55,125 nucleotides of DNA from Atopobiaceae bacterium (lineage in GTDB: Bacteria > Actinomycetota > Coriobacteriia > Coriobacteriales > Atopobiaceae): positions 1-55,125 of the forward strand of contig JAFUCQ010000123.1 of the NCBI GenBank assembly GCA_017459605.1, given 5' to 3'. The stretch's first letter is position 1. Each line of letters begins with the position of its first letter. Below the pieces are notes generated by a model. The model saw nothing but the letters and a program-made list of their open reading frames with translations. It did no database searches and had not been told where the DNA came from. Shown one piece after another: positions 20,059 to 22,312 of this stretch. A program made the position numbers and the translations under genes.

Positions 20059-20292
20059 ATGGCAGAAGGAAGAGTCGTCTACATAACCGAGGTGCCGCAG
20101 TCCAACGAGGTAAAGCTGTTCGAAAACGAACCCGACATACTGACGAAGCAGCAGGTGGCGGATTTGCTCGGAGTCACCCTGAAAACGGTTCACTGCGAGA
20201 TTCAGCGCGGTCGCCTTGGGTGCTTCCACGTGGGCACGCGCGTCAGAATCACCAAGACAGCCCTTCTCAAATACGTCGAGGAGCAGGGATAG
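20059..20292 (+). CDS. Excisionase-family helix-turn-helix protein
   Basis: A 77-residue DNA-binding protein. After a short N-terminal arm it has the MerR/excisionase-type pattern ILTKQQVADLLGVTLKTV followed by IQRGRLGCFHVGTRVRI, the wing of the HTH_17 fold. Such proteins direct integrase toward excision or act as small regulators. GAAGGAGG sits upstream of the ATG. No integrase is next to it; the only integrase in the window is 19.8 kb away and has its own truncated excisionase nearby. It therefore probably belonged to a different, now decayed element. Confidence 0.75.
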   Translation: MAEGRVVYITEVPQSNEVKLFENEPDILTKQQVADLLGVTLKTVHCEIQRGRLGCFHVGTRVRITKTALLKYVEEQG

Positions 20293-20352: not shown

Positions 20353-21027
20353 TTATTCCATAAGCTTGCGCCGTGCCTGCTTCAGCCAGTTCTTCTTGAA
20401 AGTGCCCACACTGCCGAAGAACTTGTCGTAGGTGCCGCCGTCCTCCTTGGCGGCGTACTTCACAGCCGCCAGCTCGATAGTGCAAAGATAGTCCGCAACC
20501 TGGGCGAGCCGGTACTCGGTCATGGTCGTGCGCTTCTTCACGATGGCCTGCTTCGCGAGTGCCGCGCTCACCGCTTTGTCCAGCGCCTTCTTCACGATTG
20601 CCTGACCGTTGTCGTAGTAGAGCTTGACCTGCTCGAACGTCTGGAAGTAGGCGAGGTCGTCGGTCAGCATCTCGGTCATGTCCCGCTTCATCCGCTCGGC
20701 CAGCTTCTCGGGGCTGTCGAACTCCTTGCGCTTGTAGACGAAGGTCCTGTATCGGATGGGAAGGCGCTGCACCAGCACGTTGAAGGCCACCAGCAGCTTC
20801 TTGCGCTGCTCGGGCTCCAGGTTCTCGTAGGCCTTGTGGCCGTTCAGGAGGGGTTCGGAATGGAAGGGTATGTTCGGCAGGTCGGCGTCTGATAGGGCAC
20901 GCTCGTAGTGGGATATCTTCTCGCCGATCGAGTCGTCTTGGTCGTGCGTAACCAAGGTCAGTAAGAAGTACTTGCTGTGATCTGTCTTGTCGCCGCTCTC
21001 GTCTACGAAAATGGAGAGTTCACACAC
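20353..21027 (-). CDS. DUF3800 protein preceded by a structured leader
   Basis: A 224-residue DUF3800 protein, recognised by the N-terminal acidic motif ELSIFVDESGDKTDHSKYF and the later TEYRLAQVADYLCTIELA block. The family has an RNase H-like acidic centre by prediction, and its biological role is not established. The start is taken as GTG at 21027, which puts the motif at residues 6-12 as usual; the frame is open 39 codons further, but that stretch is the leader with its two hairpins. DUF3800 genes in many bacteria are known to be preceded by various conserved RNA motifs, and this one fits that pattern. It converges with the excisionase-like gene. Confidence 0.8.
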   Translation of the reverse strand: MCELSIFVDESGDKTDHSKYFLLTLVTHDQDDSIGEKISHYERALSDADLPNIPFHSEPLLNGHKAYENLEPEQRKKLLVAFNVLVQRLPIRYRTFVYKRKEFDSPEKLAERMKRDMTEMLTDDLAYFQTFEQVKLYYDNGQAIVKKALDKAVSAALAKQAIVKKRTTMTEYRLAQVADYLCTIELAAVKYAAKEDGGTYDKFFGSVGTFKKNWLKQARRKLME

Positions 21028-21029
21028 CG

Positions 21030-21104
21030 CTGGGGACCCCCTAATACAAAAGTTGCCGGGGGATAAGCCCCCGGCGCTTGGAGGTAGCCCTTCGGAGCCA
21101 CCAA
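21030..21104 (-). ncRNA. Candidate DUF3800-associated leader RNA with two hairpins
   Basis: On the minus strand the leader begins with GGTGGCTCCGAAGGGCTACC (21102 to 21083), an 8-bp stem with a CGAA loop. It contains two G-U pairs, which are A-C mismatches when read on the plus strand, so only this strand folds fully. A second hairpin follows, GCCGGGGG/CCCCCGGC with a CTTAT loop (21075-21055), and then AACTTTT, like a terminator or stall site. GGGGG just before the GTG start could pair with CCCCC of that hairpin as an alternative fold. Structured RNA upstream of DUF3800 genes is a published theme; assignment to a particular motif needs a covariance search. Confidence 0.6.
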
Positions 21105-21108
21105 TGAG

Positions 21109-21137
21109 TTTATACCATGCCTGTGCTTGCTTGGGAA
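21109..21137 (-). promoter_or_regulatory. Predicted promoter of the DUF3800 leader
   Basis: On the minus strand TTCCCA (21137-21132) and TATAAA (21114-21109) are 17 bp apart, the optimal spacing for a sigma-70-type promoter. Initiation about seven bases further would fall almost exactly at the first leader hairpin. Confidence 0.5.
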
Positions 21138-21154: not shown

Positions 21155-21961
21155 TCACGCAGACGTCAGATAACCGGGCGTCCCGGCCTCATCTATGCGG
21201 AAGTACGTGCACGAGGTGTTGGAGTTCGACCATACGGTGCTGTTTCCGCCAACAAGGTTTGCGGAGCACGAGTAGAACAGGTAGTTGAAGTTCAGGTACG
21301 AGAACGTTGCCATGTAGCTCGCGAAGGTCGCGCTCGTGAGGTGCAGGCGGTGGGTCGGCCCGGTGACGACGTCCCAGGGAGTGAACCCGAGCCCCACGCA
21401 CGTGCCAATCGCGCAGATCCTCCCCGATGCAACGAGCTCACGCGAAGAATCCGGCGTGGGATTCGCCGTGAGCACGCCCTCGTCATCGCCCTCGTCATCG
21501 CCGGTGTCGCCCTTGTCACCTTTGACACCTTATGCCACATCGGCGGTTGTGGTGCCGTTCTTGTCGGTGATTGTGATTGTCGCTCCATCGGTGGTCTGCG
21601 TCACGGGCGCCGTCGGGGTGAAACCGTACGTGCCGTCGGCACCGTCGAAATCTCCGCGCTCGGCCGCAGTCGTCAGGTTCTCATGTGCCGTGTTGGCCAG
21701 CGCAGCCGTGGCATTCGCGGCATCGGTCGTGATCTCGGTCGCGTGCTCGTATGCGTTGATGGCGTCCACGAACAGCGTGAAGCCGTCCTCGTGCTCCTCT
21801 CCACCGATTACCACGGGCTCCACGCGGATGGTGAACACCCGAGAGCTGATATACGTGTCGTCGCCCCGAGAAACCATGACCTGGGCCTGCACGGCACCCT
21901 CGGCTTCCTGCATGGCGGCCGGGTAGTAGACCTCGAACGTCCCGGCAGCAGCGTCGGACTG
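21155..21961 (-). pseudogene. Broken phage baseplate/tail protein (BppU-like with collagen-like segment)
   Basis: The minus strand encodes GTFEVYYPAAMQEAEGAVQAQVMVSRGDDTYI-type sequence characteristic of phage baseplate upper protein N-terminal domains, then AINAYEHATEITTDAANA, then TTADVA and a TAA (21530-21532). Reading on in the same frame gives VKGDKGDTGDDEGDDEG, a collagen-like segment, and a C-terminal domain ending GTPGYLTSA at 21155. The stop is thus an in-frame nonsense break in one former gene. The 5' end is missing as well: recognisable phage sequence stops where the tRNA-derived att copy begins (21966). Confidence 0.7.
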
Positions 21962-21965
21962 ACCT

Positions 21966-22019
21966 GGAGTTTCATGGCGGGATGTACGCGACTTGAACTC
22001 TCGACCTCCGACGTGACAG
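21966..22019 (-). other. Left attachment site: 3' half of a tRNA-Asp gene (attL candidate)
   Basis: These 54 bp match 41261-41314 in 51 positions and in the same orientation. Read on the minus strand, they run from the anticodon loop CTGTCAC (anticodon GTC) through the variable region and T arm to the acceptor strand ACATCCC, discriminator G and CCA. Two of the three differences break pairs in the T stem, so this copy could not form a working tRNA. No 5' half is present. Confidence 0.75.
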
Positions 22020-22072
22020 TTGGGCAGGGCGGCGATAACAGGGAGTGACTGACGATGTGTAACGCTGGCTTG

Positions 22073-22217
22073 AACTGGGGAAATCGAAAACTGGCGATAA
22101 CTGGAGAAAACTGGAAATCTCGCGCGTTGGCTTAGCATTGGCTGAGGATTGGCTGAATTGAAAAGGTGGTCACGAATTCCGAATCCGATTGGCTTAGCCG
22201 AAAAGGTAGTCACAAAT
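22073..22217. repeat. Left-end recognition repeats of the element (candidate integrase/excisionase arm sites)
   Basis: Three sets of short direct repeats lie within 200 bp of the left att copy. AACTGG occurs at 22073, 22089, 22099 and 22109. TTGGCTTAGC occurs at 22127-22136 and 22189-22198, with shortened TTGGCTGA copies at 22138-22145 and 22149-22156. GAAAAGGTRGTCACRAAT occurs at 22160-22177 and 22200-22217. The TTGGCTTAGC word also occurs twice inside the right end, as expected for integrase arm-binding sites flanking an attP core. The stretch 22020-22312 contains no gene. Confidence 0.6.
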
Positions 22218-22312
22218 GAAAGCCTTTTCGTCAATGCGCAGTATGTTCCGTTTTCAAGATCGAAAGCGAGCGTCCACGGAATCTCCCATCAAGAACGTAT
22301 GACCTCCTCCAT

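Follow-up and report, generated by a model that had tools for sequence, protein, structure and literature searches.

What is the short structured RNA encoded in front of a DUF3800 gene in this Atopobiaceae contig (JAFUCQ010000123.1), and does it control the gene or serve as a partner of the protein? We analyzed the whole 55,125-nucleotide stretch, referred to here as the window. An initial annotation of the sequence had proposed that the RNA was either a known DUF3800 motif or a new one. No Rfam family matched anywhere in the window at its gathering score. The search with the DUF3800 models that the annotation had recommended, run on the locus and relaxed to E ≤ 10, gave no match to any DUF3800 family, RF02975 included; the relaxed search returned two chance-level matches, neither from a DUF3800 family. 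Other copies of the same RNA were likewise without a match in Rfam. The RNA is conserved and covaries in front of DUF3800 genes, and it represents an undescribed DUF3800 RNA class that is absent from Rfam.

The module lies on the minus strand between 21137 and 21025 and runs from a promoter through hairpin 1, a linker, and hairpin 2 with a U-run to a Shine-Dalgarno sequence and the GTG start of the DUF3800 gene. The promoter consists of a −35-like hexamer, TTCCCA (21132–21137), and an extended −10 element, TGG-TATAAA (21109–21117, with TATAAA at 21114–21109), separated by 17 nt. Of the promoter pair put forward in the initial annotation, the spacing and the −10 box hold up well: a weak TTG recurs in relatives at the same 17-nt distance upstream of the −10, and TGnTATAA is strongly conserved in 92 copies. 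The TTCCCA half fares worse, being a poor −35 hexamer, and a sigma-70 scan found no promoter. Hairpin 1, GGUGGCUC-CGAA-GGGCUACC (21083–21102), begins 6 nt after the −10 box in the window, and of 95 non-redundant copies 84 have precisely this distance. The fixed spacing places the predicted start site, and with it the predicted 5′ end of the RNA (21102), on the first base of the hairpin, in line with the start at the CGAA hairpin that had been annotated. As also described there, hairpin 1 is strand-specific, since its two imperfect pairs are G-U on the minus strand and A-C on the opposite strand.

An unpaired linker, UCCAAGC (21076–21082), is conserved in the alignments, with CAAG nearly invariant. 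It is followed by hairpin 2, GCCGGGGG-CUUAU-CCCCCGGC (21075–21055), and an AACUUUU tail; this element (21048–21075) is the second GC hairpin and T-run of the initial annotation, and it is conserved in relatives with its T-rich tail. A terminator scan detected it as the one terminator-like site, against 0.2 expected, and it is the putative 3′ end of a small RNA. The Shine-Dalgarno sequence AGGGGG (21037–21042; GGAG and GGGG types in relatives) precedes the GTG start codon (21027–21025) of the DUF3800 gene (20353–21027, minus strand), which encodes 224 amino acids. Just upstream of the module, the minus strand (21155–22234) contains fragments that match PHROG entries of unknown function and are separated by a collagen-like GDx stretch, and on the other side of the module the plus strand encodes an excisionase-like HTH protein (20059–20292); with these flanks, the module seems to lie inside a decayed prophage or mobile DNA.

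The predicted fold of the 55-nt RNA consists solely of the two hairpins; its energy is −30.8 kcal/mol (z = −3.50), which none of 200 shuffled sequences equalled. Because the z-score of a wider 101-nt stretch is only −1.2, folding energy alone argues weakly for the RNA, and conservation and covariation are decisive. The initial annotation had staked its proposal on hairpins that are conserved and covary in homologous loci, which is what we found. A MAFFT alignment of 40 diverse copies was used for pair statistics: 93.8% of cells are paired, 12 of the 16 pairs change on both sides, and none of 500 shuffles reaches any of five measures. Among relatives, both-side changes occur in seven of the eight pairs of hairpin 1, and sliding the structure by one column lowers the covariation score from 0.448 to 0.13–0.22. 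We also applied a home-made covariation test to 95 copies, in which substitutions are re-placed on a tree built from the same alignment. Hairpin-1 pairs top its list, and two of them pass E < 0.05 when all column pairs are counted; the other high-ranking entries are mostly hairpin pairs or their one-column neighbors. Covariation of the hairpins is strong.

A search with the protein yielded 27 loci, in Coriobacteriia and sporadically in Bifidobacterium, Varibaculum, and a MAG labelled Actinomycetaceae, with the leader common to nearly all. Culturable carriers include Ellagibacter isourolithinifaciens DSM 104140 and Bifidobacterium oedipodis DSM 109957. A covariance model (R1) matched 120 of 398 genomes of the class, about a third, some of them several times. 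Matches of a refined model (R2) in 396 genomes of the phylum were confined to the window's own order. From most of the R1 matches listed, an independent pattern (TATAA, AAG, GC hairpin, T-rich tail) gave 112 distinct copies; the copy counts exclude five regex-artefact sites and two copies that resemble DUF3800-XI. The two-hairpin unit is single per locus in nearly all 112 copies, with extra separate RNAs in a few loci. One of these crowded loci, L060 (G106:C29:9000-12000), has three RNA copies of two hairpin types within about 500 bp, on both strands, beside one broken DUF3800 gene. A search for the RNA in phage and plasmid records found no phage record and one Collinsella record; a profile search found it in two viral contigs (L226 and L235), and a pattern match in IMG/VR (L059) was rejected as chance. 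We also rejected a transposon-like unit, as there are no conserved ends upstream of the promoter or behind the gene.

The RNA is closely coupled to its gene. Among the 112 copies, 69 lead directly to an intact DUF3800 ORF, 13 to a broken ORF, and 25 have no gene (5 were not judgeable); where a gene is present, the leader almost always precedes DUF3800. Several of the 25 gene-less copies retain an N-terminal scrap of the DUF3800 gene, indicating that the gene is often lost while its RNA stays in place. Hairpin 1 pairing is 0.94 both with and without the gene. Divergence of the RNA hairpins tracks divergence of the protein (r = 0.51 and 0.48; r = 0.08 for the adjacent 6-nt spacer), and other DUF3800 subfamilies (for example, L089 and L090) have no such leader. 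None of 20 flanking proteins is shared between loci; the RNA–gene pair therefore looks self-contained, and a fixed defence-island partner was rejected for the same reason. A csb1-type Cas gene and an MmeI-type restriction gene lie near two of 13 loci (L014:4068-5249 and L004:4148-4927).

Individual loci show the pair in various states of disruption. In L003:1041-2950, an IS-like element, bounded by terminal inverted repeats and carrying a 446-aa ORF that reads as a transposase, sits inside hairpin 2 with GGGGCTGTCCCC on both sides. In genome G132, the RNA and the DUF3800 gene stand at two contig ends (L055 and L200, contigs C104 and C121) joined by what seems to be a single inserted sequence; this may be a further insertion, here one that parts the RNA from its gene. 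Three intact DUF3800 ORFs (L199, L201, and L061:542-1201 on the plus strand) have an upstream RNA or promoter that is lost or damaged.

The window protein scores 31.1 bits against PF12686 (gathering cut-off 21). PADLOC gave it a weak DUF3800_VII match at 20 bits and found no match in seven relatives. In an AlphaFold2 model (pLDDT 91.2, pTM 0.90), the protein is predicted to have an RNase H fold nearest to RNase HII: Foldseek placed an archaeal RNase HII as the nearest solved structure (E = 3.8e-4), and the best solved matches in structure comparison were RNase HII/H2 and Argonaute PIWI, at a Z of about 8 that is modest taken alone. Across 33 proteins, D9, D139, and D179 are invariant and E10 is nearly so. 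The DEAG motif of RNase HII and its two additional aspartates occupy places comparable to D9-E10, D139, and D179. These carboxylates make a two-metal nuclease the likely activity of the modelled DUF3800 protein.

What might the RNA do for such a protein? That the leader is an ordinary terminator beside a chance hairpin is very improbable. GC-rich terminators are common and the wider 101-nt fold is unexceptional, but the covariation of hairpin 1, the fixed promoter spacing, and the gene coupling in relatives contradict this reading. We also think it unlikely that the leader is solely a cis-acting attenuator, in which hairpin 2 terminates transcription and either the DUF3800 protein, by autoregulation, or a ligand at hairpin 1 sets the read-through. 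A terminator-like hairpin between promoter and gene, and leader copies nearly always placed before DUF3800 when a gene is present, are what it would predict, and the initial annotation had suggested a switch of this kind, in which GGGGG before the start codon pairs with CCCCC of hairpin 2. This alternative pairing does form when the 101-nt stretch of the window is folded. Of 53 intact relatives, however, just 14 have GGGGG close to the start codon, so the switch is not conserved. A conserved anti-terminator is likewise missing. Moreover, the start site is fixed on the hairpin itself, gene-less copies retain the full structure, and the conserved unpaired bases are too few for the usual riboswitch aptamer. 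The evidence leans toward a partner RNA that has a promoter and a terminator to itself, over a pure cis switch.

A partner RNA might activate the protein or restrain it. We regard it as quite unlikely that the RNA serves to activate the protein, as cofactor or scaffold of a DUF3800–RNA ribonucleoprotein nuclease that attacks foreign nucleic acid, with the protein inactive without RNA. The RNase HII/PIWI-like fold would suit it, DUF3800 domains adjoin Cas12a2 in rare CRISPR systems (PMC10910872), and the constant linker and hairpin 2 could serve as a protein-binding handle. Against this, the RNA has no variable single-stranded guide segment, its variable parts being paired or short loops, and a terminator before the gene favors an excess of RNA, as with antitoxins. 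We put forward, tentatively and at close to an even chance, a two-part module resembling type III toxin-antitoxin systems, in which the small RNA of about 55 nt binds the RNase HII-like nuclease and keeps it inactive.

In the restraint model, transcription would start at the first base of hairpin 1 and most transcripts would end at hairpin 2, freeing the short RNA; read-through past hairpin 2 would yield the DUF3800 mRNA, with the terminator limiting protein supply. The RNA would bind DUF3800 through hairpin 1, which is paralogue-specific, together with the constant part made up of CAAG and hairpin 2. Bound RNA would hold the nuclease inactive, in the manner of the RNA antitoxins of type III toxin-antitoxin and AbiF systems. 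If RNA levels fell, as they might when a phage infects the cell, the nuclease would be released. The observations behind this model are the conserved promoter-like box, the RNA structure, the terminator-like 3′ end, the gene coupling, the shared divergence of RNA and protein, and the nuclease-type fold; from them we infer transcription of the module, RNA–protein binding, inhibition, toxicity, and a role in defence.

Restraint, which we consider most likely by analogy with RCd22-AbiF, fits a terminator that favors RNA excess, a structure kept without the gene, hairpins that vary from one paralogue to another, and the lack of a conserved third gene. Speaking against an antitoxin are the single RNA unit, without the repeat array usual in ToxIN-type loci, and the few intact DUF3800 ORFs without a full RNA (L199, L201, and L061, plus strand). 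Since several gene-less copies are relics with N-terminal gene scraps, persistence of the RNA may mean only recent loss, and simple linkage together with shared ancestry would also lead RNA and protein to diverge in step. The association of the module with defence is thin.

With slightly less confidence than for the module itself, we suggest that this may be a widespread new class of RNA-restrained nuclease: one two-hairpin RNA would keep an RNase HII-like DUF3800 protein, which has no relationship to ToxN or AbiF, in an inactive state, and by extension the known DUF3800 motif RNAs would be antitoxins too. If true, a new nuclease fold would join the RNA-controlled toxins. The family is abundant in gut Coriobacteriia, compact (about 55 nt), and offers many natural variants with matched proteins, which makes the antitoxin idea directly testable, including specificity between paralogous pairs.

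The nearest known RNA is DUF3800-XI (Rfam RF02975, type Gene; sRNA). Like the window RNA, it has a promoter, a 5′ hairpin, a short CC..A.. linker, a GGCGGGG hairpin with a T-rich tail, and a DUF3800 gene, which belongs to the same DUF3800 subfamily as the window gene. It occupies the same position before same-subfamily genes in Coriobacteriia (L094, L102, L198) and viral contigs. Its hairpin 1 and linker are different, RF02975 does not match the window at E ≤ 10, and R2 detects part of the DUF3800-XI copies weakly, at 14–28 bits. With the same plan in another sequence, the window RNA is a sister class undescribed in Rfam. The two RNA classes meet in L067:1411-3049, where the immediate leader of a DUF3800 gene matches DUF3800-XI below threshold (22 bits) and a relic of the window-type RNA stands about 1 kb upstream of that gene.

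More distant systems share parts of the arrangement. In the TPR-DUF3800 proteins of Cas12a2 loci, the DUF3800 domain is likewise predicted to adopt an RNase H fold (PMC10910872), but it is fused to TPR and linked to Cas12a2, and the window has neither. Type III toxin-antitoxin loci (ToxIN, CptIN) also place an RNA gene before a nuclease gene (PMC8860590, PMC5086642), and by sequence and fold prediction the window has the type III layout of an RNA gene, a terminator-like hairpin, and a nuclease-fold gene in one predicted transcript. The antitoxin described there is a set of RNA repeats that a ToxN-type endoribonuclease processes, whereas the window has a single two-hairpin unit, without tandem antitoxin repeats, and an RNase HII-like protein. 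The comparison that guides our reading is RCd22-AbiF of Clostridioides difficile (abiF motif, Rfam RF03085), whose RNA is the most thoroughly tested one of this layout. AbiF, unlike DUF3800, belongs to the Abi_2 proteins, is linked to ancestral Cas13, and has no RNase H fold, and RCd22 differs from the window RNA in length (about 100–130 nt), in its two motif copies, and in sequence. As proposed for the window module, a promoter, a short structured RNA, and an intrinsic terminator with read-through precede the protein gene: RCd22 is terminated before the gene with occasional read-through, and it neutralizes its toxic protein by direct binding, in cis and in trans (PMC12373285).
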